Below are positions 8,817 to 60,400 of a DNA stretch of 64,000 nucleotides, piece after piece. Position numbers and translations under genes: made by a program. Location: assembly GCA_012932295.1 (NCBI GenBank), contig JAAONU010000018.1, positions 924,206-988,205 of the forward strand, given 5' to 3'. The stretch is from Cyclina sinensis. Its lineage: Eukaryota; Mollusca; Bivalvia; Venerida; Veneridae. Numbering within the stretch: position 1 is the first letter of the stretch; the number at the start of each line of letters is the position of its first letter. The notes below the pieces were generated by a model, which did no database searches, was not told where the DNA came from, and worked only from the letters and a program-made list of their open reading frames with translations.

Positions 8817-11800
8817 AATAGAAATGGAGGAAATGGAACATGTAACAGCTCTGAAATATGTCTTACTGAAATCAGAGGAGACAGTGTCTGGGGTGAAGGG
8901 ATATGTTGCCATAGGAACCAACTACTGTCTTGGAGAGGATATATTAGCTAGAGGCAGGGTAAGGAAATAAGTCCCCATTTTGAAGATCTTATACTCTAGA
9001 AATTTGTTAAATTCTTCAGATATTATGTTTTTTCCTTCTCAATTTTAGCTCACCTGAGCATAAGCTCAAGGTGAGCTTTTATGACACTCATTGTCTGGTA
9101 TGTGGCATGCAGCATCCATTTCATCTTTAAATAACATCTCCTAAAACACCAGCTTTATGTTAGTCAAACTTGGCAGGGATGTTCCTTTGCATGAAGCTTT
9201 ACCAAAAGAATTGAATTCTGCCAAGAACTCTGGTTACTATGGCAAGAAAAGGAGACACTTTGAAAATCTTGTCATAAACCTCAATGAATATAGCTTGTAT
9301 AGTTTGCATACAGGTTGCCCTAGAAGTCCTCTACCAAGATTATATAAATTAAGCCCCTGGGTCATTAATGGCTCTGCTTCTGGGGTCACTAGGTTTTACA
9401 TATAGGGAAGACTTCAAAAATCTTGTTGTAAACCACAAAGGCTAGGGCTTACATATGGAACATCTTCTAGAGGTCCTCTTCCAAAATTGATCAATCATAT
9501 AGAAAGGTATATATCAAATCATAAATAAATGACCTACATCATACACTTAGTGAAGTATTTAGTTAATGTTTTTATACTCTGTAAAATATTTATTATTTGC
9601 TCCACTAAATATTCATGGAATCTGCTGCTGCAGGATTGATTAACTTCAATGATTTTTTTACATGTAACTGAATTGTCTTGACTAGATATCCATCTTATTA
9701 ATGGCAGTGGATATATATATATGTTATTTTATGCTATGTTATGTATAGGCTATGCCTGTTACTGATCACTTTGATCTTTTGTATAAAATATTGGAAACAT
9801 CTAGAATAAGTTCTGAAAACAGAGAGATAGTAATATAAACAGCAGCTGTAATATTGATGCAGCATAAGACCACAAAATTTCATAATATGTCAACTTAAAA
9901 ATGTCATCACATCCATTAATATAATATGGGATAGCTAAAACTCTTGTATGAAACACTGACACATTAGGTTTTACCCACAACTTACATACATGAAGCTGTT
10001 GTTAATTCTTTCTTTATATTTTTCATTTCAGATAATTATATTTGATGTGATAGAAGTTGTACCAGAACCTGGGCAGCCTCTAACTAAACATAAAATTAAG
10101 GTTTGTATTTAACACATACAAGTAGACCTACATGTTTCTGTACTAAAATTAAATGAAAAATCTTCTTAACATTGGCTTAAAAAATTCATAAGCCTTTTTC
10201 AGACTTGGGTTTTTGGCGTTGTTTGTTATGAAAACTAATATTCATCATCTAAAGTGCTTTTATCAATATTTGACCATTGTCATAGATCTTGTTACTTTAA
10301 TGAAGTTTTCATTTGAACTTTACCTGTCTGGTACTTGGTAATCAAAAGTCTCTTATTTCATGTACACCTTGAGTGCTGAAACGCCTGTCAGATTACTGGT
10401 TTGTATTCCACGTTGGGGTTAGGAATGTGCATTTTCACAAGATAGTTAAAACCCTAGAAAGACAATCTGTAACACTGCAAGTACAGTGCAGATCTGTAAC
10501 ACTGCAAGTACAGTGCAGATCTGTAACACTGCAAGTATAGTGCTGATCTGTAACAAGGCAAGTACACTGCTGATTTGTAACAAGGCAGGTACACTGCTGA
10601 TCTGTAACAAGGCAAGTACACTGCTGATCTGTAACCCTGCAAGTACAGTGCTGATCTGTAACACTGCAAGTACACTGCTGATCTGTAACAAGGCAAGTAC
10701 ACTGCTGATCTGTAACAAGGCAAGTACACTGCTGATCTGTAACAAGGCAAGTACAGTGCTGATCTGTAACAAGGCAAGTACAGTGCTGATCTGTAACCCT
10801 GCAAGTACACTGCTGATCTGTAACCCTGCAAGTACACTGCTGATCTGTAACAAGGCAAGTACACTGCTGATCTGTAAGAAGGCAAATACACTGCTGATCT
10901 GTAACAAGGCCAGTACAGTGCTGATCTGTAACCCTGCAAGTACAGTGCTGATCTGTTACACTGCAAGTACAGTGCAGATCTGTAACACTGCAAGTATAGT
11001 GCTGATCTGTAACAAGGCAAGTACACTGCTGATCTGTAACACTGCAAGTTTAGTGCTGATCTGTAACCCTGCAAGTACAATGCTGATCTGTAACAAGGCA
11101 AGTACACTGCTGATCTGTAACACTGCAAGTACACTGCTGATCTGTAACAAGGCAAGTACACTGCTTATCTGTAACACTGCAAGTACAGTGCAGATCTGTA
11201 ACACTGCAAGTACAGTGCAGATCTGTAACACTGCAAGTATAATGCTGATCTGTAACAATGCAAGTACACTGCTGATCTGTAACACTTCAAGTACAGTTCT
11301 GATATCTAACACTTCCAGTACAGTACTGATCTGTAACACTGCATGTACAGTACTGATATGTAACACTGCAAGTACAGTGCTGTTAACTTTGAAATAAAAG
11401 ATACATCGTTCTGGATCTGCACTATGAACAGTACAAAGGTGACATTTTAAAAATCATGTAGATTTGATGTCCAGCACCATGCCTTTTGGGAGTGTTATTT
11501 ATACTGCAATGAATAACAGTTAAGCGTTACTTCTGTTTCCAGGTAGTTTATGATAAGGAACAGAAAGGCCCAGTCACAGCGTTGTCTCATTGTAATGGCT
11601 TCTTGGTCTCAGCTGTAGGACAGAAGGTATGGAAATGTTGTTACATTCTTTGTTTGCTTTTTTACCTAAAAATGTGGGTCATTGCAGAACTGTTATTCAT
11701 TCTTATTTTGTATGTATTTACAATTGATGTGCATTGACACCTCTGTAACACTTATACAGTAAACAGATACCTGGTTTAAGATGTTATGTCTTGAAAAAGG

Positions 11801-16742: not shown

Positions 16743-17403
16743 TATTGTACTCCAATCTTAAACTAGAAACAGCGTATTTCATTTCCTACTAACCATAATG
16801 GTAATTGCATGCAGCCGGGCATGGTAATAAAGATTGCTTCAGTTCTTCATGGTTTTTCTCGGGTAAAGCAACAAAGATAATGATACAAATGACTCATTAA
16901 AGAAACCTCACATTTATTAACACACAGAGTAACAGGAGCTATGTGTGAGATGATGGCCATCCCCCTGCAGAAAGGCTTTTCGTTTGAAAAGGAAATAGTG
17001 GCTGGCATGGACAATAGTTAAGAATTGTTAAATAGCTGTTGAAAAAATGATTTAAGTACACAAACAAAGTCCAAGTTAAAGAGAGCAGCAACTTTCCATA
17101 GAGCCAAGGTAGAATTATTGTACTTTTGCACTGCACTTCTAAATGCCATCAAAGTTTTATTTATACCTCAATGCAGTGAACATCTGTGCCAAGTAATTTT
17201 TAAATCTTGCCAGCCCAGGTAGTTAGAACCCAGAAAAGCAGATTTGTAGCCAGTTGACCTCTGTGTCCTTGACCTATAAACTACTGACCTGGTTCAGTTG
17301 TTCCACAAACCTCATTGCAGTGAAGATTTGTGCCAAGTAATTTTGAAATCCCTCCAATCAAGGCCAAGTGACAGCCTGGGCATGTAGCCTGGACAAGTAA
17401 AAG

Positions 17404-17850
17404 TGTGAAGGAATGACAAAGTGGCAACTATATGCTCACTGGAAATAGTGTGAAGGAATGACAAAGTGGCAACTATATGCTCACTGGAAATAGTGTGAAG
17501 GAATGACAAAGTGGCAACTATATGCTCACTGGAAATAGTGTGAAGGAATGACAAAGTGGCAACTATATGCTCACTGGAAATAGTGTGAAGGAATGACAAA
17601 GCGGCAACTATATGCTCACTGGAAATAGTGTGAAGGAATGACAAAGTGGCAACTATTTGCTCACTGGAAATAGTGTGAAGGAATGACAAAGCGGCAACTA
17701 TATGCTCACTGGAAATAGTGTGAAGGAATGACAAAGTGGCAACTATATGCTCACTGGAAATAGTGTGAAGGAATGACAAAGTGGCAACTATATGCTCACT
17801 GGAAATAGTGTGAAGGAATGACAAAGTGGCAACTATATGCTCACTGGAAA
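17404..17850. repeat. 45-bp minisatellite, about 10 highly uniform copies
   Basis: The unit begins GTGTGAAGGAATGACAAAGT and continues through GGCAACTATATGCTCACTGG. Ten copies differ only at a T/C position in 'AAAGYGGC' and one A/T change. The minus strand stays open for 170 codons because 45 is divisible by three (SFLHTISSEHIVAT per unit); I regard that as an artefact. The array lies between the convergent 3' ends of CPSF1 and ORC6. Its uniformity implies recent expansion or an assembly-sensitive copy number. Confidence 0.9.
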
Positions 17851-18096
17851 TTTTTGGGGAAGCATAAGAAAGACAAACCAGAATAAAGTATTTTTAATTT
17901 TGCTCTTTTTTTTGTTTTGCACTTTCAAAAAGTGTGCTGTAAGTTTTATTCACAACCTTTAAGTCTGGTCAAATATATATAAATTAACAGATTTCAGAAC
18001 ACAGTATATATAAATATCAGCACTGGTCCATAAGCCTTAGTTCTGAGTGACTAATACTATCATTAGAAGTACTAAGAATAAGCATCTTATAAGACT

Positions 18097-21300: not shown

Positions 21301-24300
21301 ATTCAATGAAATAGAAAGCTGTGAGTTTGGCCTTGAATACGAACAATATTGTTTTATTCCCAAACCCTACTGATGTTTTATATATAATAAAATCCCCCAA
21401 GTGGTTTTGGAGATGTAGCTTGGACAAGATTTTAACATAGAAGTCATTGTAAAAAATGACCAAGGGCCCATAACTCTGCCAGAAATAATCCGACCAAAAA
21501 ATCCTGACGATATGCACAGCTAGATTTGGTGACAAACATTCCTGAGTAGTTTCAATGAAATCCTCCAGTGGTTTTGGAGATGAAGCGTGGACAAGATTTT
21601 AATATAGAAGTTAGAGTAAAAAAATGACTAAGTGCCCATAACTCTGTCAAAAATAATCCGAGCAGAAGAAACTCCAAAGATATGCATAACAGGCTTAATG
21701 ACAAACATTCCTGTGAAGTTTCAATGAAATCCTCCAAACGGTTTTGGAGATGAAGTGTGGAGAAGATTTTAATATAGAAGTTAGAGTAAAATATGATTAA
21801 GAACCCATAACTCTGCCAAAAATAATCCGAGCAGAAACTCCTGACGACAACTAGGCTTGGTGACAAACATTCCTGTGAAGTTTCAATGTAATCCTCCAAG
21901 TGGTTTTGGAGATGAAGCCAGGACGAGATTTTACCGGACAGAGGGATGGAATGACAGTGCGATTATTATATGCCTCCCTTCGGGGGGCATAGAAAAGAAA
22001 AGTAAACAAAATGCTGGAAAGTCTACTTAAGTTTATGTAAAACATCAAACCTTCCAACAAAAGGAAAAGTGCAGTAAAAGTGACCCCAAGGGCAAAGTTT
22101 TAATAATCTTGGTAGAGGTTTACTGCTTTATGCCAAATTTCCAAGCTCTTGGCCTTGTGGTTTCAAACGGCTTTAAATATTTTCTATGTAAAACTTGTGT
22201 CCCCTTGGAAGAGCCAAAACACTGGGTGATAACAAAAGCTCACATTCAGCATAACATGCTCAGGTGAACTAAAATTGCTCTTTTGTTTTTCAATACACAC
22301 ACATGTACACATGAAATGACAGTGGGCTACCTTTTCAGAACCTGTTGTGCCAGAGTTATTGCCCCTGTGCATCCAAACTGTACTGCAAGATCCCTGATTG
22401 AGTTGACCTGCTGAATATCAAGTATACTTTCTATTGTCTTCAGACACATTGTGTACAGCTTCTTCGTTGTCCCAGAGGTCTTCACTGCAGCAGCCTGATG
22501 GCAAAAATACATATCTATCCAAGGAGGAAGTTGTACAATATCTACATATCATAAACATGTGACAACTCACAGATGGTATGTAATGGTATATAGCAATTTT
22601 ATAGTTACATACTTCACAACTTCAGCTCTGTAGTTAACTACTGATCTGTTTTAAAATCGAAGTTAAAAAAGATCAAACAAAACTGGTCTCACCTTGTCCA
22701 CATGGGAGTTGCATGCCGATGCGGCTATTTCTAGACAAGCCACAGTTTTACATGATCCAGTCAGCTTCAAGGCTGCTAGGCTACCACTGCTGCTCCTAAT
22801 GTCCACTAACTGGCAATACTCTTTGGCCTTCCTTGAAATTATTTTTGAAAAAAAAATCAGTATAACTCAAAGCATTTTGTGACATAATGTTTTCTATCAA
22901 ACTTACAGAAATTAAATAATGTCTTTTTTTATATATAAAAAAATACACTAAAGTTTTATTTTTGACAACATACATGGTTACACACTTCATATCCACCATA
23001 TCAAATCTTACATGGGGTTTGTTGAAGCTTTCGAACTCTCCTTTGGTGACAAGATCAAACATTTATACATAATCTGTGAACCAATCTAACTAACAAGAAG
23101 TCTATCAGTCATTTAGATCTGCAACACCAGAAAATTAATTGATAATACAATCATTTTGTTCCATTCTCCACTGCAATTAAATCATTGGATTTTGGAGTGC
23201 TATGGTTTAAATAAGTTTGAAGTAAAAATGGTATATAGTACAGTGCGACTTCAGGACAAAATCAGATGTAACAGGTTATAAATAGTGGCTTGACCGGGAC
23301 TCGAACCCATGCCTATCGCTTACAGGGCGGACACTATACCAACTGAGGTACAAAGCCACAAGGTTCTGCCTTATCGATTTATCACCTATAAACCTGAACC
23401 CGGCTACATATACCCCCTCCAAATTTAGAATTCATCCCGAATTCTCAGTCACGGAGAATATTGTGAAACATTCTTGAGGTGCCGAAGCAGAAGCCATATT
23501 ATAATGTAGGTTATTTACGTTGGGCACCAAATGTAACATATCTCTTGTTTGATCAAACTTAGAATACTGCTGCACAGTTTGGAACCCCCATCACAAAAAC
23601 CTTGTATACCAAGTGGAAATAGTACAGCGAAGAGCAGCACGTTTCACCACAAACAGGTACCATAACACCAGCGGTGTCACAGATATGTTACATGATTTGA
23701 ATTGGGAAACTCTGGAAGTTCATCGTCAAAAGCTCCAAGTCAGCATGCTATACAAGATTGTCAACCACCTCGTAGAGATAGACTCTGGTCCTTACTTAAC
23801 ACCAACTAAAGCCAGACCAAGGTCGACACACAGTACCCATTTCCTGCCATATTCAACATCTACTGACATCATGAAGTTCAGCTTCTTTCCTCGATGTATC
23901 CCGCTATGGAAAACCTGCCAGCATCTGTTGCTGAGGCTCATTCTTTGGCATCCTTCAAGAATGAGCTGTCAAACCTGACCTTCTAATGGGGACTTTCATG
24001 CACAGTTACGAAGTACCGCCAACTGACAGGCTCGAGCTATGCCAGCAGGGTCTCCTACCCGGGCACCGCCACGGAAGCTGCTGGATTGGTCTTGCCTTGA
24101 TGGCCGAAAAGTAACTGTGCACAACTATCTACTGTTATTTCTTCCTTTTGTATCTTACTTGCATCACAGTCCGAGTCTTTCTTCTGACTATCCTATCTTT
24201 ATTTCTCTTTGTTTTTTTCTCTTGCGCACCGTTAAAGAAATGTCAAATTTGTGACAGTTTAACATACTGATGTAGATGTAGGGGAAAAATCGTGGCTTGA

Positions 24301-24622
24301 CCGAGACTCGAACCCAGGGCCTTCCGCTTAAAGGGCAGACACTCTACCAACTGAGCTACCAAGCTACACGGTTCTGCCTTGTCGATTTATCACGCTATAA
24401 ACCTGTACCCGGCTACACAGAAATAGAGAAAATGTCCGTGCTTTCTTTTTGTAAATGTAATCTCTTGAACTCACATGATTCTCATGTTGTTTCTATGTGA
24501 GTTTGTTATTTCAGAGGTGTGTATCTAAACTAAATGACCTCAGAAACAAGTAAATAATTGTACCTTAATACTCGAGGGGAAGTTACACCAATTTTCGCTC
24601 CTAACGTTGACAAATCTGACAT
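18383..24622 (-). CDS. ORC6: Origin recognition complex subunit 6
   Basis: ORC6 is the smallest subunit of the nuclear complex that marks replication origins and helps load MCM2-7. Seven minus-strand exons join in phase: 24622-24564, 22831-22693, 22494-22331, 21070-20984, 20623-20511, 19249-19181 and 18504-18383. The product is 250 aa (human 252). Residues 1-95 form the first cyclin-box-like (TFIIB-like) half. IRDLAVQFGC in the second half and CKKLKIKLERGKLKELC match the vertebrate protein. A flexible acidic stretch (SDDEGDDNEDD) precedes the ORC3-binding tail DYEEWKKRILENAA. Tyr232, whose human equivalent is mutated in Meier-Gorlin syndrome, is present. The start ATG follows a consensus E2F site. 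A large intron (22832-24563) carries a nested retroelement insertion. Confidence 0.95.
21390..21990. repeat. Tandem cassette repeat, unit about 162-170 bp, with hairpin end
   Basis: Four 'GGTTTTGGAGATG' anchors at 21403, 21570, 21740 and 21902 mark a period of 162-170 bp. Other shared blocks are CCCATAACTCTGCCA, AAAATAATCCGA and GACAAACATTCCTG. The right end carries GGACAGAGGGATGG and then a hairpin, TATGCCTCCCTTCGGGGGGC. It lies in ORC6 intron 3. Minus-strand open frames here are repeat-derived. Confidence 0.8.
22080..22275 (-). repeat. Interspersed repeat, AGTTCACCTGAGC type
   Basis: On the minus strand it begins AGTTCACCTGAGCATGTTAT and continues GCTGAATGTGAGCTTTTG. This is the same hairpin-initiated family as the element at 9045. 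It ends close to ORC6 exon 3. Confidence 0.5.
23263..24421 (-). mobile_element. Miniature LTR retrotransposon with tRNA-like LTRs, split by a LINE
   Basis: On the minus strand: target duplication TCTG (24418-24421), 5' LTR from 24417 (TGTAGCCGGGT...), interrupted by a LINE, LTR end ...TGTTACA at 23532, then PBS-like TTTGGTGCCCAACG, about 123 bp internal sequence without an ORF, purine tract GGAGGGGG, 3' LTR 23408-23267 (142 bp, TGTAGCC...TTACA), and TCTG again (23263-23266). Without the LINE the element is about 425 bp, the size of a TRIM element. Each LTR contains a tRNA-like module with box A (TRGCTCAGTTGGTAGAGTG type) and box B (GGGTTCGAGTC). No protein is encoded, so it must depend on helper enzymes. 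A tRNA SINE captured between other repeats is the main alternative. Confidence 0.65.
23541..24259 (+). mobile_element. 5'-truncated non-LTR retrotransposon, reverse transcriptase C-terminus
   Basis: Translation gives LEYCCTVWNPHHKNLVYQVE, then VQRRAARFTTNRYHN and FSFFPRC. These are hallmarks of the C-terminal end of Jockey/CR1/L2-type reverse transcriptases. The frame then breaks: after FFPRC (about 23900) the expected ending (LPASVAEAHSLASFKNELS) is found in another frame, and an in-frame stop lies near 23550. It is therefore a dead 3' fragment with about 280 bp of 3' UTR. The 7-mer TAACATA at 23534-23540 and 24260-24266 is a candidate target-site duplication, placing the insertion inside the 5' LTR of the miniature LTR element. 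Confidence 0.75.
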
Positions 24623-27461: not shown

Positions 27462-39981
<12,520 letters not shown>

Positions 39982-44077: not shown

Positions 44078-47000
44078 TCATAAATCCACCCTTGGTCCCA
44101 TGCCTAAAGGAATGGCTTTTATTTCTGTCCTCATACATAAAAACTCTCCAAGCACTGTCATTAAAGTCACTCCAACTAAATTTAAAATCCACCATGAGAC
44201 TGTGTGGGGTATGTGTCCATTATAAATCCAACATATGATAAATTGAAGAAAATGACAAGTGACAGAAAAGTCTAAGCACTGCTTTGTTCTTCCAACAATA
44301 AACCAGAGTCCAAGAGCACTAAAACATAGAACAACAAACATACATGTATATCTGATTAGATCATATTGCATTTCCAAGGAAAGTCCCCATTTCGTGACAG
44401 AATTCTACCATTAGGCAACAGAAAATAAATAAAAATTCCAACATTAATTTATCTTGGCTCATCATCTTTTATGATTCAAGTTCGGATTCCCATCAAGCCA
44501 CTTTGAGTTTTAATATACACTGTACTTACTTTGATTATATAAAGAAATAGAAATGTGACAGACATCTATCTAGCATGATTAACATGTAAAATAATAGCTA
44601 AAAATGAAATAAGATACATACCTGGTTAAACAGTTTAATGCATAAGCTATAGTGTTTGCTTTCCCTGGTCCTTCTGTGAAAATCCCTTTGTCCTAAAAAG
44701 TAAATCATTGCATATAATAATAACTTCTGTTTTACCACGTAATACCTTGTCTGTAAAAGTGACCATTTCAAACTCTATATGTTATGTGTCAGTCACATTT
44801 GAACAGTATATATATATATATGTATAGATATATACATGTGTATGTCAGTTTGTAGTCAGCAAAGGCAGTTCAGTGGTAATGCACAGGACTTGTAATCCAG
44901 GGGTCACAAGTTCAGTCCCCACTTATTCTTCCACTGATACCACTAACTCTCTGTACAATGAGACATTACACCAAGGTCCCATGTATCACTACCACACACT
45001 GAACATATAAAGAACCAGGATTGTCTGTGAAATTGGATACTTTCCGTATCTTGCACTACCCCCTATAATCTAAAATAATTCAACACTTAAGGAGGCATTC
45101 GGCATACAATGTACATGTAGGCATCCAATACCAATGATTAACTAGAAATGGGTTTTTGATTGAACAAAAACATATGTCTCCCCCCAGCCAGTTGCTGCAG
45201 GCAGTACTGAGTCAGACGATTGTAAAATTTGACAATTAACCTCCAAGTGTGACCTTGACCTTGAGACACCACACCCGCAAAGTGGTTTCTGCATGTCGCC
45301 TTGATGAGGTGAACATCTGACCCAAGTTTCATAAAAATCCTTCAAGGGCTTTTGAAGATACAGAGTGGACAAGATTTTGTGGCAATTGACATTTAACCTC
45401 CAAGTGTGACCTTGACCTTGAGACACCACACCCGAAAAGTGGGTTCTGCACGTCGCCTTGATGAGGTGAACATCTGACCCAAGTTTCATAGAAATCCTTC
45501 AAGGGCTTTGGAAGATACAGAGCGGACACGATATTGTGGCATTTGACATTTAACCTCCAAGTGTGACCTTGACCTTGAGACACCACACCCACAAAGTGGG
45601 TTCTGCATGTCGCCTTGATGAGGTGAACATCTGACCCAAGTTTCATAAAAATCTTTCAAGGGCTTTGGAAGATACAGAGCGGACACGATTTTGTGACGGA
45701 CAGACGGACGGACAGACAACCAGGGGAAAAACAATATGTCTCCCCCATTTTTAGGGGGAGAAATAATAAACCCAACATGTGGAGGAGGAGCAGTGGTCAA
45801 TGGGTTAGAGAGCCAGACTCACGATACAGAGGTTGCTGGTTCGAATCTCACCAGAGGTGAGAGTCTACAGTGACCTTCCACATTCCTCACATTCGACGCA
45901 AGTACTGGTTTGAACCCAGGAAGCAGTCATCGACAGCAATTAATATTGTAACGGGGTGTATTTATCTACAGTGTAGTATGGTAGTGTTTTGTTAGTACGG
46001 TAGTGGATTTTGGTAGTATAAAAGAGTTAGCTCCCTGGTAGTTTTCCGGTAGTAGAGGTCATACATTAGGAAGGAAATGTTGTTGTAGAAAATCGGTTTG
46101 CATCGGGTTGGTGTTATGTGAAAAAGATGTAATTAAGGTAAGAAATGTTCAAGTAATGTCTCTTTTGGTTGTTGGACTAGTTATTTCGGATTGTCATCTT
46201 GTATTTTTTAGGATTTGTCTTGGATATTGTTTGTGACTGTCGGAAATTGAAAATACATGTACATCTTCATGAAACTAATCATTTGCACTGCATAATTCCT
46301 AACAGGTTCCTTCACATCCAGCACAAGAGTTGGGTAGCATGTGAGCAGGTGACTGTCCTGTGTCTGGGATACCTTATATCCCGTGAGTATAGAAACAAAA
46401 TGGAGAATAGAATGTAAAATGATTGTTGTTCCAAGATGTATTTCATCTTGTTTGTAATTGAGCATGTGTCATCCTTTTTTCCATTCAAATATTGATAGCT
46501 ATTTTTTACAGTAGAATAAGTATTTGTTGTACATTAAATCATAATTATATTTATAAATGTGTTGATGCAATTATGTGTCAAATAAGTAATTGAAATGTCG
46601 TACACTATAGGCTAGAATCCTTAGTATTATGAAGCCTTATTATTACAATGTTCTGTATGTTTTATGTAAAGACTGTTCTTTTCATATAATTCCAGGATGG
46701 GGATTGTAAGGGATTGTATGTGATTGTGTGGGACTATGCCTTAGACATTTCATGTAATGATGAAATAAAGTACTTGTGAACTGACCAAGCTTGAGATCCT
46801 TCTTTATCCTCGGTTTGGAGCTGATTAGAGAAAATCCCAGTTTGGTACATTGGAGCCCCCAGTGAAGATCGAACTCATGACCCCTGGTTTACATTTGGCG
46901 CCCAACGTAAATAACTCACGAGTTTAGATGTGATGGCACCCTTAGAAAGTCCCACAGACATTCAGTGCTCCAGGAATTCGAGGACGAATTCTAAGAAGGA

Positions 47001-47529
47001 GGGGGTGTATGTAGCAGAGGTATAATACGGCACTTCTACTCCCTTGCCTATCAGCTAGCTTTTATGGCGACGTGGTAGAGTGTCCGCTTAGTAATCGAAG
47101 GTACCCCGAGTTCAAACCCAGCTCGGGGAAGGTGGATTTTTCCGGGTTACAATATAAGTTGCAAGAACTTGCTTCCCAATTGATTTAAAATAAGTAAGTT
47201 TAAAATTTATAAAACTAAGCAGAAAGCAAAGAAGTACAAGTAACTTAGCTCCCTTTATTACTGCATGAAGTGTAATTCATAAAAAATATAATAACTAATC
47301 AGCCACTGTTTGACAATTATGAGATATCTGAATTATATCAATTAGAGTAGGTAGAACAGGTACTTACAGCCTGCTTGAAAAGCTGGTCTACAGTTGTGTC
47401 ATATCCACAGATAAAGTTGAGTATGTACACCCATATTCCAAGTGTGAAAATAAACTGACACTGTAAGCTGACAATCTGGCTGATAATGAGTACAGGATCC
47501 CAGACATTACTTCTAAATGTTCCCACCAT
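44078..47529 (-). CDS. SYS1: SYS1, Golgi-localized integral membrane protein
   Basis: SYS1 is a four-span membrane protein of the trans-Golgi that recruits the small GTPase ARFRP1 and so the ARL1/golgin pathway. Three minus-strand exons, 47529-47368, 44692-44622 and 44318-44078, join in phase to 157 aa (human 156). The N-terminus FRSNVWDPVLIISQIV matches human FRSYVWDPLLILSQIV. RTKQCLDFSVTCHF and EFLCMRTEIKAIPL match the conserved C-terminal half. Four hydrophobic segments are visible at about residues 12-42, 70-86, 93-110 and 114-134. I chose MVGTFRS as the start by family length. An in-frame ATG 12 codons upstream (47565) is possible. An acceptor-like site at about 47681 suggests a 5' UTR exon. 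Intron 1 hosts a cluster of mobile elements. Confidence 0.93.
44863..45085 (+). mobile_element. tRNA-Thr-derived SINE, second copy
   Basis: The head CAGTGGTAATGCACAGGACT followed by TGTAATCCAGGGGTCAC and the tail TTTCCGTATCTTGCACTACC match the element at 41225. It lies in SYS1 intron 1. Confidence 0.65.
45150..45765. repeat. Tandem cassette repeat, unit 157 bp, 3.5 copies
   Basis: GACCTTGACCTTGAGACACC occurs at 45251, 45408 and 45565, a period of exactly 157 bp. Other blocks are GATGAGGTGAACATCTGACC, CAAGTTTCATAAAAATCCTT and GAAGATACAGAGYGGACA. The array ends in GACGGACAGACGGACGGAC and a hairpin with CTCCCCCATTTTTAGGGGGAG. The left edge has TATGTCTCCCCCCAG. Overlapping minus-strand open frames (KLGSDVHLIKATC) are repeat products. 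It lies in SYS1 intron 1. Confidence 0.85.
45781..45946 (+). mobile_element. tRNA-like SINE
   Basis: AGCAGTGGTCAATGGGTTAG (box A-like) and GCTGGTTCGAATCTCACCAG (box B) are spaced as in a tRNA. They are followed by a tail without a gene. The acceptor stem does not close well, so a functional tRNA is unlikely. Confidence 0.5.
45947..46849 (+). mobile_element. Putative LTR of a retrotransposon
   Basis: The segment starts TGTAACGGGG and ends TTTGGTACA, the usual TG...CA termini. It contains a TATA box (TATAAAAG, 46017-46024) and AATAAA (46764-46769) followed by a GT-rich stretch, in the order expected for U3-R-U5. A primer-binding site begins one base after its end. No second copy of the LTR and no gag/pol is visible, so it is either a solo LTR with adjoining leader or a truncated element. 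Confidence 0.5.
46851..46893 (+). other. Extended primer-binding site complementary to tRNA-Thr(UGU)
   Basis: The reverse complement reads TGTAAACCAGGGGTCATGAG, then TTCGATC (T loop), and ends TGGGGGCTCCA. It includes the CCA tail, which is not encoded in animal tRNA genes. It corresponds to positions 76 down to about 34 of tRNA-Thr(UGU), about 43 nt, where ordinary binding sites use about 18. It directly follows the putative LTR and abuts the next element. Confidence 0.5.
46894..47151 (+). mobile_element. Miniature LTR element, internal region and 3' LTR
   Basis: It starts TTTGGCGCCCAACGTAAATA (binding-site-like) and has about 115 bp of non-coding interior with GAATTCGAGGACGAATTC. It then runs into the purine tract AAGAAGGAGGGGG and a 142-bp LTR (47010-47151) from TGTAGCAG to GGGTTACA. 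The LTR contains a tRNA-like module, GTGGTAGAGTGTCCGC and GAGTTCAAACCC, then GGATTTTTCC. The order and even the LTR length match the element at 23.3-24.4 kb. The 5' LTR is missing and replaced by the tRNA-Thr-like segment. Confidence 0.6.
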
Positions 47530-54711: not shown

Positions 54712-55046
54712 GGGAGGCTTTCACACAAAAAGGTGCGGAGTTAGAATGAAATTTGAGATGAATGTAAAAGATATACAACTTTACGTCAAGTGATTCTCCA
54801 ACATCTTACTAACAATCTGTCCCATGTTCTTGTCAAATTTTACAAACTTTTCTAAAATAGGATCTCAGGATATCTGCCTCTGCCATTTCTGTCGGATAGT
54901 GTACTGTTCTAATCCATGGAGAAACAAATTGATTGAAAAATTTTATTCGTAAAATATATACATGAAAATATTAATAAAACACTTTGCAAGTATTATGTGC
55001 TCTACTTAGAATATAACTGTGATATATTTAGATGAATATTTTAACA

Positions 55047-57497
55047 ATGGATCACACTTGTGAAGATTCTAATTCATCCACTGGGAGTTATCACGAGCGA
55101 AACAGTCCGCTGAACTTTTCAAAGTCACAATGTCAAATGTCGACAAAAGCTTCTGCTTTTTCCATAGATGCTTTAATTGGTAAAAGAACTCTTGAACAAA
55201 TGCAATCATGTGCTTTTCCGTCGGCAAGTAGTCCCGACGAAGAACCAGAAGACTGTGATTCGCCAAAGCAGGTGTGTTGTGACTCGCCGCCGGCAAAACG
55301 TGTTCGACATTCCGACGGGATTGCTTTAGCTCCATTAGGTCGGTATCTTACTTGATATGAAATTAGTGAAATTATAAATATCGAAGAATAATTATAATTA
55401 GAAACAATTCAATTATGTATATATACATACAGATATGTTTACTAACAATTTTATGTAACTATAAACGACTTTCTAAGAATATTGTATAAACCATTTATTT
55501 CCGTATTTAATATTACAGAAAATAATCCAGTAAACTATGCAAACAAAATATGCATGCATTGTAAAATTTATTAAAATAATATAAGTTCGTAATTTTTGAT
55601 ATCTTTTATTGATTGTGTAAATCATTTAATTTTGTGAAAACTATTCACCAATTTAAATATATAAATGAACACTTGTGTGTTATAACATTTGTATGGGAGA
55701 CGATCCTTTTATGAATAATGAAATTAAAAAGCTGGGGGTTTGAACTTTGATAAATGTATGAAAATAAATGCACTCAGAAAAAAAAGAAACAGAAGAAAAT
55801 ATCTGGGCTTACTTTATAAGTATTTTTATATCTAAATTTTCAAAAATGATTAGAAATCGTTCAACTGTTATACACGTAAAAATATTTTAAAAACGTATTC
55901 TTAATCTGATTAAACAATTTTGTTTAGGTCAGAGCAGAAAAAAATACTGGAGAAATCAGTACTTTACGCGTGACTATTTTTCTTTCTTTCTTTTTTTTCC
56001 CCCCAAAATACCGTATGTAAAATGATTTTTCTTATGTAAAAACAAAATATTGAGCAAGAATAGAACTCGGCATTTACTAAATAATACATATATAGTTAAC
56101 TCGTTAAATAAAAATAAAAAAGTATCCTAAACCCTAAAGGAACATAGAATATATAAAGCAAAGATGTTAGACTTTTAATATCAGTAAAGGTTGTCTTCGG
56201 ATATAAGTTTTCATAGTCATTAAAAAAACAAAAAAAGCTAAAAAGTCATCCGTCTTTGTGCCAGAAAAATAGTAGAAATATTTTTCGACACAAAATTACG
56301 GCACTTTTTTTAGTGAATAAGGGTGTGCTTTCTGTTTTTTTGTACACATGTAAAATATGCAAGCGATACCCCATGAAGCTTAAATTTCTATTAGCACAGT
56401 CGAACTTCTACCTTTTCCTACAAAAATTGTGAATAGATTTTACACAAATAATTGAATAACTTAAGATGAGTTTAATCAAACAGAGAAACAAAGTTGAATA
56501 AAATAATATCGATAATAGTAACAATATCGATAATAGTAACAATATCTATCTGATAGCTCGACAACAAATCTCCCGTGTAAACGGTCACCATTTACTATAA
56601 AATTATCACGAAGAAAATCTTCACAAACAATTACTTTATTTTGAAAATCGTCACATTTTGTGCGATACGCATCATTTGGTTGCTATGATATATTTTTGAT
56701 TATATCAAAAATGTTTTGAAAGAATCTAAGCATGCTAATGATATGGTAGATAGGAGATATTTGAATCATTGTCATATTTTTAGATGATTCACGGCCATTT
56801 TGTGTAACAAAATAACAATTAAACTGATAATTTGTAATGTAATTTGATTTTACACGATAAAAACATAAATGCCACTTTAGCTAAAGTCTTCCATGTAACA
56901 ATAAATTATTCTTTATCAAGTAAAACGTCCCACCTCGTACTAGCGTAGAAATTTGCATGATGTCCACTTTTGTCGTTAAATATTTTAGAATTCTAACCAA
57001 GACTGTGGAAAACTGTTCTATGGTTTTCATCTAAAGAATATCATAATTGTTTCAATTGATGGAACCAGTCCCAGTAAATGCAGCTGCAATTAAAAAACAT
57101 TGTCTTGCATTTTTACCTTCAGACACTTATGCTTTAGCTAGTATAAAATGTCGTATGCTAAAATATGTTGGTGAAGAAGACGACATGTTCCAATTAGTGA
57201 ACGACATTACTTTACCTCTGCAGAACGACTTGTCGAAACAGCGACATCACTGAGCTCCCAAAAAGCACCTAATTCGGAGGAACTTTCCAGCCCCAGAAAA
57301 GGGGACACGCCAACTCCAACCATCAGCATAAAGGAAGAGGAAGAGGTAGACCCTGAAGAAATTGACGTCGTTAGTCCAACAGCGTCACCGCCATGCTGCA
57401 AAGAATTAGCAGACGTAGAGTGTCGTCTGGAAACCAAAGATTTATGGGACAAATTTCACGAGCTCGGAACGGAGATGATTATAACGAAAACAGGCAG
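55047..57497 (+). CDS. TBX20: T-box transcription factor TBX20, first two coding exons
   Basis: TBX20 is a nuclear T-box transcription factor, best known in heart and motor-neuron development. Exon 1 (55047-55338) and exon 2 (57224-57497) join in phase 1. Exon 1 has the N-terminal motif AFSIDALIG, comparable to AFSIAALM of vertebrate TBX20 and to Groucho-binding eh1 motifs. A basic PPAKRVRH patch follows. Exon 2 carries an acidic stretch ([12 protein letters not shown]) and the start of the T-box, [20 protein letters not shown] then ITKTGR; human TBX20 has [18 protein letters not shown]. This form excludes TBX15/18/22 (LWKRFHEIGTEM). The ATG at 55047 has a good Kozak context (ACAATGG); 55032 is in frame but weaker. 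The next exon, expected to begin RMFPTIRV, was not found before 64000. Confidence 0.88.
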
Positions 57498-60400
57498 GTA
57501 GGTACAAAATGATAATGTTTTAACTACTACAAGATGTGCATAACGTATGATTAATCACCGTTTAATCAAGATGCACAGGTCTATGCACACAATTTGCCCT
57601 AGGTAACGCCTCATCCTTCACCGAAAAAGAAATGTCAAATTTTCTGATACTGTTTTTTTGATTTGGCAAACTTCGAAATTTTTCGAACCAATAAAACTTT
57701 TGAAATCTATAGATTTTTTCCTCGTTTAATCGTTCGTAACGTTTAAGGAAAATGATAAAAATAGAACAGATTCAGCAAATGCCACGTGGGAGTCACACCA
57801 TATCTTGTGTATTACAGATCACACAAAATAAGCCAGGCCCCGTGACAAAATTTCGACTTTTTTTTCAAAAACTTTCACCATATGGTGAAATCTTTGTATT
57901 TTTTAAAGAGCATGGTTGCTTCCTGTTTGAAGAGAACTGAAAAAATATCTGCTTGGAAATTCAATCATTATAATATAACAGATGCGTTAATTTCAATGGT
58001 AGATTATAATTTTCTGACATTTCGAATGCGATACTATGGGTTTTATTCAACTTCATCTGGTAGCTTTAAACAAATATTCTAGATATTTTTCTTGGTTGCT
58101 GATGAAATAAACACGAAAAATTGCCAAGGTATTACATACATGTAAGATAAAATTAGTAAAATAGGATGGTTACATTCAGTTACAATATTAGATTTCACAT
58201 ATTAATAGATACAATTCACTTTTTACTGTATGTAACAAACTTGAATTAAACAATATTGCTGTACGCATGCGTATTTCAGGCGAATTAACCGAACAATAAT
58301 TGTATTTTTTCTTTCTGAATACTTTTATTTGTTCTGTTGCTAAATGTTCAATTAAAAGGTTAATCTAAAATAGTAGCTAAACAGAGAAAAAATATCATTG
58401 TCTAAGTTATTTTCAACATACTTGAATTGTTGATGATATGCGCATGAATAAAGATATTAGGTGTTTCAATTACCAATATGGTCACTGCACCAATTAAGTT
58501 ATTTTCGAATCATTTGACTTTCAAACCTTAATAAACACCAAAATTTATGTCTGAGCTTCGCAGTATTGAATGTCAAAGTTTAGTTGTCCAGGTCAGAGAA
58601 AACAATATATTTTCCACGACCACAGACATCCATCAATGAAAGATTCTTAACGGCGTTTTCACCAAGAACCCAATATTTACTTAAAATCACCCCTCTATTT
58701 ATTCACCCGCACGATTATTGTTTGGACTTAAATGTCCGTAAAACTATAAAACTTGATACCTTTGATAGACCCCCTTTAAGTAGAAAATTTCCACCATTGA
58801 GCAATTTTGAGGGTCTTTTGTGGGTTGAAGAGCATTTGAGATGTTAATGCAAATATGCACAGTGTAATTTTGTTTAAATTAACTGAAAGTCAAGATGGCG
58901 GACAAGTGCGGAATGGGGCGCGCACATGTAATTACATTCAGTCATCCTCGGCATTGGTTTCAAGTGGAATATTCTCATTTTTTTATCGGGAAAAGCTGTT
59001 CATTATTGTGATGTTAGTGCAGTCGTGGTCAGACGTATAATGATATTAATTGACGGCACGTTCCCGTAAAGTGATCTCAATACTAGAACCGCTTTCGCCT
59101 CGTTGATTTTTCATTGGTATTCCGAATCAGTGTTCTACGCAACATCTTGGACTCGACTGAAGTATAATGATACTCGCTTAAAGTTTTTAATGTTACGCAT
59201 TGTTGTAGTTAAAGTTTTTTATCCCTCAAGATGTTACGCATTGCTGTAGTTGAAGTTTGCTAGTATTTTCCATTTTTGATGCAAAAGCCAAAAAAATGTT
59301 GTGACTGTTTTTAATAAATCACTAGAGGCATACCGAAGAAGGGGTTTCAGAGATGTTATTTATATCATGTATATATCTAAATATATCCTGAATGGTTTCT
59401 GACCTGACGTTATTACAACTAGCCAATTTGATACAGTACTATAATGTCAGAGGAGTCGCATTACTAATCTAGTTATCAGTACATCCAGTGTAATAATCAT
59501 TCTAGCTAATTTATGTCATCATTAAAACTTCAGCTATAATGGCATATATCAGGAACTCTAGATTAGATGTTCGAACACTTGTTGGATGCTCTGTTTAAGG
59601 AGATGTTTGATTTTGATCATCTTTAAAGTTCACTTCCAAATAGTTCAGCACATTTCAAGGTCACTTTGTCAGTGAGGTGTTTGACTGAAACAGTTGACCA
59701 TACGTTTATTTTGTCAGGCTTCTGGATCAAGGTGCATAAATCATCACCAAGGTTATACAAGAAAACACTAAGTCCACTTGCCGCCTGTAATTAACTGGTC
59801 ATCTCCAATATAAATTTAAACTGAGACTATAATTAACTTTGGGCCATTGGGCCCCGTCTGTCGGCGCGTTGCCGCCCCCAGGGGTGAGCCCTTTTTGCTT
59901 GTAATTTACTCCCAAGGGAATCCCTTTTCAACAATGAATTGGACAATGAAAACAAATACGGTTATAAATGGACGGTCCATCAGCACATTGATGACCGATG
60001 GTCACTCATTTAAAAGTAATTCAAGAATGATCTAACTGAGTAAATATAAATATTCTTAAACTTTATCTCGTTACTCAAAGTACATATATATAGAAATTAC
60101 GTTAAACGTTACAACATTTTTTTTGAATACAAAGCAATGATATTCACTTCGAATGTTTTTTGTAAAAAACAAAACAAAAAAACAAAAAAGACCCGCTTGA
60201 ACAATGGGGCAGTCACAAATAGGAACAATCTGACATTTATCATATCCGTTTTAGTATAAAATGTGTAAGAAAACAAATCCCTATTTTATTTTATTTTATT
60301 GAAAATTAAATTCAAATGATACAGACATCTCTTAAAATACTCAGTAATAAAGTACGAAATATTCTCACAGAGTACATCAACATAGCAAACTTCTTTCCGA

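Follow-up and report, generated by a model that had tools for sequence, protein, structure and literature searches.

A short repetitive element was analysed within a 64,000-nucleotide stretch of the Cyclina sinensis genome (contig JAAONU010000018.1, positions 924,206 to 988,205), the whole of which is hereafter called the window and whose own numbering is used throughout. At 23263–24421, on the minus strand, the window contains a sequence with the layout of a terminal-repeat retrotransposon in miniature (TRIM), together with its flanking target-site duplications (TSDs) and a later insertion of a long interspersed element (LINE). It is a real TRIM copy and belongs to a multicopy family, hereafter family 1; two sister families, 2 and 3, are also represented in the window. 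With a probability of about 0.9, I consider it a Helenus-type TRIM (TRIMp3), a non-autonomous long terminal repeat (LTR) retrotransposon of ∼417 bp with a tRNA-gene-like cassette in its LTRs.

Read on the minus strand, the copy begins after a TSD at 24418–24421 (CAGA on the plus strand, TCTG in the minus reading), identical to the one at 23263–23266 on its 3′ side. The main part of the 5′ LTR (24281–24417) starts with TGTAGCCGGG, and its final bases lie beyond the LINE, the last seven being TGTTACA (23532–23538), the LTR end common to most fetched copies. It pairs with a 3′ LTR of 142 bp (23267–23408), 122 of the 144 aligned columns being identical, or 87.8% without gaps. TGTTACA is followed by the primer binding site (PBS), reading TTTGGTGCCCAACGT, and then by the rest of the interior; a motif search places the tRNA-Lys-type site TGGTGCCCAACGT at 23517–23529. 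The interior, 123 bp long (23409–23531) and without coding capacity, has a 3′ tail of the form GAATTC-G-GGATGAATTCT, then the polypurine tract (PPT) GGAGGGGG (23413–23420) ahead of the 3′ LTR. No open reading frame (ORF) of at least 110 amino acids was found in the element, except in the LINE fragment. The copy thus combines what defines a TRIM: two LTRs, a length below ∼1000 bp, no coding sequence, a PBS after the 5′ LTR and a purine tract before the 3′ LTR. Allowing up to one mismatch, the PBS motif TGGYGCCCAAYGT is found at three places in the window; shuffled sequences gave 0.15 on average (100 shuffles, none reaching three), and all three places fall in the window's three tRNA-bearing LTR elements.

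The LINE fragment, derived from the C-terminal part of pol, lies on the plus strand at 23545–24275 (ORF 23613–23978), within the final bases of the 5′ LTR. LINE copies elsewhere in the genome match query positions 274–1019 only, and TRIM copies match positions 1–276 and then directly 1019–1156, without the LINE, so the LINE inserted later than the TRIM. The window copy is old, as shown by 12% divergence between its LTRs and by the LINE insertion in the end of one of them.

Each LTR carries a tRNA-like part. That of the 5′ LTR (24293–24365, with A and B boxes, the B box at 24302–24314) scores 50.0 bits with Rfam RF00005, and that of the 3′ LTR (23286–23357, B box 23295–23307) scores 29.3 bits, which barely exceeds the gathering score of 29 bits. 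ARAGORN reads the 5′ copy as tRNA-Lys(ttt), which differs from the tRNA-Thr(tgt) typical of family 1. Directly after it stands a run of five T (T5; 24285–24289), a candidate terminator for RNA polymerase III (Pol III).

The host genome (902,855,857 bases in 154 contigs) was then searched. For family 1, 40 of 973 first-look candidates, a number that includes LINE matches, were scored and gave 73 matches; the 30 further loci fetched are all the TRIM loci assembled from these. The LINE piece was found in none of the 30. Two or three LTRs surround PBS/PPT interiors in 29 of them, with three LTRs standing head to tail in four (L009, L012, L020 and L036), and the remaining locus, L038, retains a single LTR beside its interior. 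The family-1 LTR is 146 bp long, interiors are mostly 125–126 bp, and most two-LTR loci measure ∼415–421 bp. The window copy resembles that of locus L015 at 93.4% identity in the 5′ LTR (positions 1–136 of 146) and 91.3% in the interior. All four TSD bases are identical in 19 of the 26 loci with both ends defined, and three of four in three more; L024–L026 have common flanks and are thus a single insertion, leaving identical flanks in 17/24 independent loci, where chance would give 1 in 256. Five identical flanking bases were found in no locus of families 1–3. Of 25 LTR pairs measured, six show no difference along their 146 bp, and family 1 has therefore been active recently.

These loci also bear on the possibility that the window element consists of two tRNA-derived short interspersed elements (SINEs), inserted by chance in the same orientation around unrelated sequence, as the tRNA-like head of both repeats and the LINE between them might suggest. 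However, the repeats begin with TG, end with CA and extend well past the tRNA part, a PBS and a PPT are present, and the 4-bp duplications surround the pair. Moreover, an LTR pair with a 112–129-bp interior recurs in 28 of the 30 fetched loci (the exceptions being L038 and L017, whose interior is 383 bp), whereas a SINE would be a single unit with a LINE-like or poly-A tail and no LTR pair. I regard this explanation as extremely improbable. A preliminary description of the window copy had proposed two LTRs in the same orientation, a PBS, a purine tract, CAGA flanks, no ORF and tRNA-like modules in both LTRs, all of which were recovered, on the minus strand. Of the LTR sizes it gave, 142 bp stands, and "about 160 bp" should read ∼142–146 bp. 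It had also named multiple full LTR-PBS-PPT-LTR copies with 4–6-bp TSDs as support for its reading, and solitary tRNA-like units with a poly-A or SINE tail as its refutation; the fetched loci are of the former kind, with 4-bp TSDs.

Family 2 is represented in the window, on the plus strand, by an interior with PBS (46896–46908) and purine tract (46894–47009; 99.1% identical to the interior of locus L063) and by a 3′ LTR with a degenerate tRNA-like part and a T5 run (47010–47151; 99.3% identical to the L063 LTR); its 5′ LTR is missing. Family 3 is represented by a minus-strand LTR at 39509–39651, whose tRNA-like part (39529–39601) scores 44.5 bits with Rfam, and which is rearranged, with an inverted LTR remnant adjoining. 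Scoring 40 of 1695 candidates for family 2 gave 79 matches, the first 40 of which show 97–99% identity along all or almost all of the query, and 40 of 370 candidates were scored for family 3; 20 loci were fetched for each. Family 2 is the most uniform of the three, with a mean pairwise LTR identity of 0.981 and LTR pairs that agree at 138–142 of 141–142 positions (18 pairs measured). Elements measure 398–400 bp in family 2 and 396–397 bp in most of family 3, and identical 4-bp TSDs flank 16/19 and 13/17 loci, respectively. LTR identity between families is only ∼57–63%, and between families 1 and 2 the similarity of the window interiors extends past the PBS (none of 1000 shuffles aligned as well). 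The three families share the PBS TGGCGCCCAACG (29/31, 15/19 and 15/20 interiors) and an interior end of the type GAATTCGAGGACGAATTCT followed by a purine tract; in the form GAATTCG(A)GGACGAATTCT plus purine tract, this end is present in 29/31, 19/19 and 13/20 interiors. In family 1, GGAGGGGGTATA closes 28 of the 31 interiors as the purine tract.

Two further observations concern these window copies. The family-3 element (39463–39651), which lies in an intron of the gene VPS35, is arranged head to head, an LTR and an inverted LTR remnant meeting at the primer-site palindrome GGCGCC; a comparable palindromic junction, with family-2 LTR sequence, is present at locus L108. Upstream of the family-2 copy, an unrelated repeat within 46401–46893 (other copies 91–97% identical) stops at 46849, and the 43 bases at 46851–46893 are fused to the family-2 PBS, where its 5′ LTR should stand. 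Read in complement, these 43 bases presumably match the 3′ half of a tRNA-Thr, including CCA.

The PBS for tRNA-lys1,2 is given as TGGCGCCCAACGTGGGGC in PMC8775094. The family PBSs match the tRNA-Lys site over 12 nucleotides and then diverge. The exact 18-mer occurs at 14 places in the genome, against none for the reversed control, and of the 12 places fetched, nine follow a TRIM LTR, one is the palindromic junction of L108, and two (L105 and L114) lie in an LTR-like element of a different kind. At L103 (family 1) and L109 (family 3), PBS positions 13–18, TAAATA and TGGTCT respectively, are replaced by the TGGGGC of tRNA-Lys, with family sequence again from position 19 onward. The same overwriting, with one extra A, is seen at L110 and L113, and L009 carries five of the six tRNA letters. 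Reverse transcriptase halts at the methylated A58 of its primer tRNA, that is after 18 nucleotides; overwriting over exactly this length is the footprint of tRNA-Lys priming. At L104 (1355–1568), a family-2 LTR runs into an almost full-length antisense tRNA-Lys (CTT), which extends from the CCA end to about nucleotide 9 (Rfam 33.5 bits) and in which A58 has been read as G. Recombination with a tRNA gene is an alternative explanation for this stretch.

The footprints identify the primer and not the supplier of the enzyme. Locus L017 is a hybrid of the form LTR1-INT2-LTR2-INT1-LTR1 (INT being the interior and the numeral the family), flanked by a CATA duplication. Its outer LTRs are identical (146/146) and have the rare ending TGTGACA in common. 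The simplest reading is a single insertion of cDNA copied from RNAs of both families within one particle, and from this hybrid it follows that families 1 and 2 shared one machinery. Overwritten PBSs and a two-family hybrid thus allow genomic footprints to replace inference on priming and shared machinery. The copying would be performed by a Ty3/Gypsy element primed with tRNA-Lys, a scheme of which the priming step is near certain; the Ty3/Gypsy identity of the helper is likely, judging from the primer site and from the interior tail, which I take to resemble the end of a Ty3/Gypsy pol. In the literature, the tail motif was found only in primer lists of unrelated papers. A search for copies of the elements in viral contigs (three patterns) and in prokaryote genome contigs (one pattern) gave no matches, and neither collection is expected to hold bivalve DNA. 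The mutually related L105 and L114 (∼position 1500) add a fourth type of LTR-like element, in which the tRNA-Lys PBS is exact over 18 nucleotides and the LTR end, CTGCGACA, resembles that of family 3; no coding stretch longer than 57 amino acids was found in the 1.5 kb downstream.

The tRNA-like cassette is recognised by ARAGORN as tRNA-Thr(tgt) in 53/57 family-1 LTRs and as tRNA-Ala(tgc) in 37/38 family-3 LTRs. Rfam gives 34 tRNA matches in 17 loci of these two families, reaching 65.8 bits, so young copies have a better cassette than the window copy. A small gene-less element with repeats could also be a retrozyme, or a pseudo-LTR element with a hammerhead ribozyme in its repeats; at gathering scores, however, Rfam reports only tRNA in these 17 loci and in the window (three matches), and no hammerhead, which makes such an origin very hard to credit. 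In family-1 LTRs, the A box TRGCNNRRYNGG is present in 50/57 and the B box GGTTCGANNCC in 48/57. The boxes occupy corresponding LTR positions in families 1, 2 and 3 (A box 59, 56 and 56; B box 103, 99 and 100), as does the T5 run (128, 127 and 127, in LTRs of 146, 141–142 and 145 bp). A run of five or more T stands after the tRNA-like part and before the PBS, 14–19 nucleotides from the LTR end, in 127/133 LTRs (55/57, 36/38 and 36/38). Runs of four or more T are missing from 69/70 interiors (30/31, 19/19 and 20/20), the exception being the hybrid L017. When LTR plus interior was shuffled, a single run of at least five T fell at that place in 96, 85 and 46 of 5000 cases for families 1–3, figures that should not be multiplied, as the families may not be independent.

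Transcription by Pol III, with read-through of the T run in the 5′ LTR, is the explanation I favor for these features, with somewhat better than even confidence. With the A and B boxes as promoter, Pol III would initiate at LTR position ∼45–52, close to where the tRNA-like part begins. Some transcripts would read past the 5′-LTR T5 run and terminate at its 3′-LTR counterpart, which would define an R region of ∼80 nucleotides, a U5 of ∼14–18 and a U3 of ∼45–50. The RNA would then be packaged by the Ty3/Gypsy element, primed with tRNA-Lys, reverse transcribed, and integrated by the integrase of that element. With a T run between putative promoter and PBS, the passage of Pol III through the 5′ LTR becomes a testable question for all such elements.

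Several observations weigh against this scheme. Without read-through, Pol III would stop at the 5′-LTR T5 run and never reach the PBS; in the window copy, the 3′ LTR no longer has its T5. The helper was not found, the genome pattern GAGGACGAATTCTTN{0,14}GGGGG giving 16 places, all 16 of which are family-2 TRIMs. ARAGORN recognises a tRNA in none of 38 family-2 LTRs, and Rfam gives no match at E up to 5. Compared with family 1, family 2 matches at 7/12 positions of the A box and 7/11 of the B box, and at 31/47 in the rest of the tRNA-like part. With no recognisable tRNA and with boxes no better kept than their surroundings, a Pol III promoter in family 2 would be weak; family 2 also carries a run of four T near the expected transcription start. 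Despite this weakest promoter, it has the most first-look candidates. I considered the family-2 boxes as proof of selection and rejected this, as they are no better kept relative to family 1 than the rest; among family-2 copies themselves, variation is slightly lower in the boxes and the T run (0.0085, 0.0031 and 0.0063, against 0.0136), at few sites.

These elements might instead be ordinary TRIMs transcribed by RNA polymerase II (Pol II), with the tRNA-like part a captured passenger that has no role in transcription. Such a view would accommodate family 2, the most uniform and the richest in candidates (1695, against 973 including LINE matches and 370) and yet without a tRNA score. Against it stand a cassette kept at the corresponding place in three families despite the low LTR identity between them, and a T5 run directly after the tRNA end, which resembles the terminator of a tRNA gene. 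I consider Pol II transcription unlikely, though well worth bearing in mind.

Returning to Pol III, the observations can tentatively be joined into a broader proposal, which I put at rather less than even odds. The cassette would be a whole tRNA gene with its terminator, the T5 run having to be passed over in the 5′ LTR and to take effect in the 3′ LTR, a role comparable to that of the poly(A) signal in retroviral R, so that the R of ∼80 nucleotides would hold the entire promoter; the lineage, being present in both Pteriomorphia and Heterodonta, would predate their split or have crossed between them. If so, each element would make two RNAs, one short and tRNA-like, the other a rare full-length template. 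As for the origin of the cassette, SINE insertion, as proposed by Kojima (PMC10886601), is possible. Capture of a tRNA gene would agree no less well with a terminator placed directly behind the tRNA part. An origin by read-through along the primer tRNA was rejected, as it would give antisense tRNA, as in L104, and the cassette is sense. A role of the tRNA-like part as its own primer was likewise rejected, its 3′ end mismatching the PBS on inspection.

The host was placed using VPS35, the exons of which span ∼27.9–40 kb of the window. Among the best 120 of 3714 BLASTP matches to the joined protein, Mactra antiquata is the closest named species (83%), with a marine sequence at 88%, Dreissena and Mya at 81%, Pinctada and Mytilus at 78%, and Argopecten at 77%. 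In a 15-row tree the sequence clusters, at 100/100 support, with Mactra, Dreissena and Mya. Together these results make the host an imparidentian heterodont. Elsewhere in the window, exons downstream of VPS35 (55032–57498) presumably belong to a T-box gene, Tbx20-like, and long tandem repeats, open in several frames, occupy 10446–11397 and 17312–17893.

Several known elements invite comparison. In plants, Cassandra is likewise a TRIM with the promoter and terminator of a small-RNA gene in its LTRs; this gene is 5S rRNA and not tRNA, and the terminal redundancy is 18 bp, against the putative R of ∼80 nucleotides here. Ajax, from nemerteans, is also described as a TRIM with a Pol III promoter in its LTR, but with a 5S rRNA part, 5-bp duplications and a tRNA-Leu primer, unlike the present elements. 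The bivalve biv-TRIM (Satovic 2019, PMC6934838) occurs in heterodonts and in tandem arrays, and its PPT GGGGAGA resembles that of family 3. According to the available text, however, its terminal direct repeats measure 202–218 bp, its interior 77–80 bp, and it has no clear PBS; that text does not mention a tRNA in the repeats, and the conserved inner motif it reports is present in 0/31, 0/19 and 0/20 interiors of families 1, 2 and 3.

The closest counterpart is Helenus. The preliminary description knew of no such bivalve family, a view overtaken by the text of Kojima (2024, PMC10886601), which defines Helenus with a matching build and tRNA-like LTRs, and reports 51 families in pteriomorph bivalves, from five orders of Pteriomorphia, placing its origin in their ancestor. 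I assign the present elements to it by build and by this description, the likeness being the tRNA-like sequence in the LTRs (families 1 and 3) and the 4-bp duplications of its animal members; family 2 has A/B-like boxes at corresponding positions only, with no tRNA by ARAGORN or Rfam. Helenus is further marked by a PBS for a host tRNA that a Gypsy element also uses; here the footprints show the use of tRNA-Lys, and the searches for a helper brought up no Gypsy partner. This kind of TRIM, with a tRNA promoter, was therefore already described in 2024. The molluscan members named in the paper's text are from Pteriomorphia only, and I found no report of Helenus in heterodonts in the open-access literature. 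Relative to that text, in whose main part "terminator" occurs once and concerns Cassandra, the new features here are the run of five or more T, the overwriting of the PBS, the inter-family hybrid and the heterodont host. Three young sister families are thereby available in one genome, and molluscan TRIMs with a putative Pol III promoter extend beyond the bivalve subclass named in the text of 2024.

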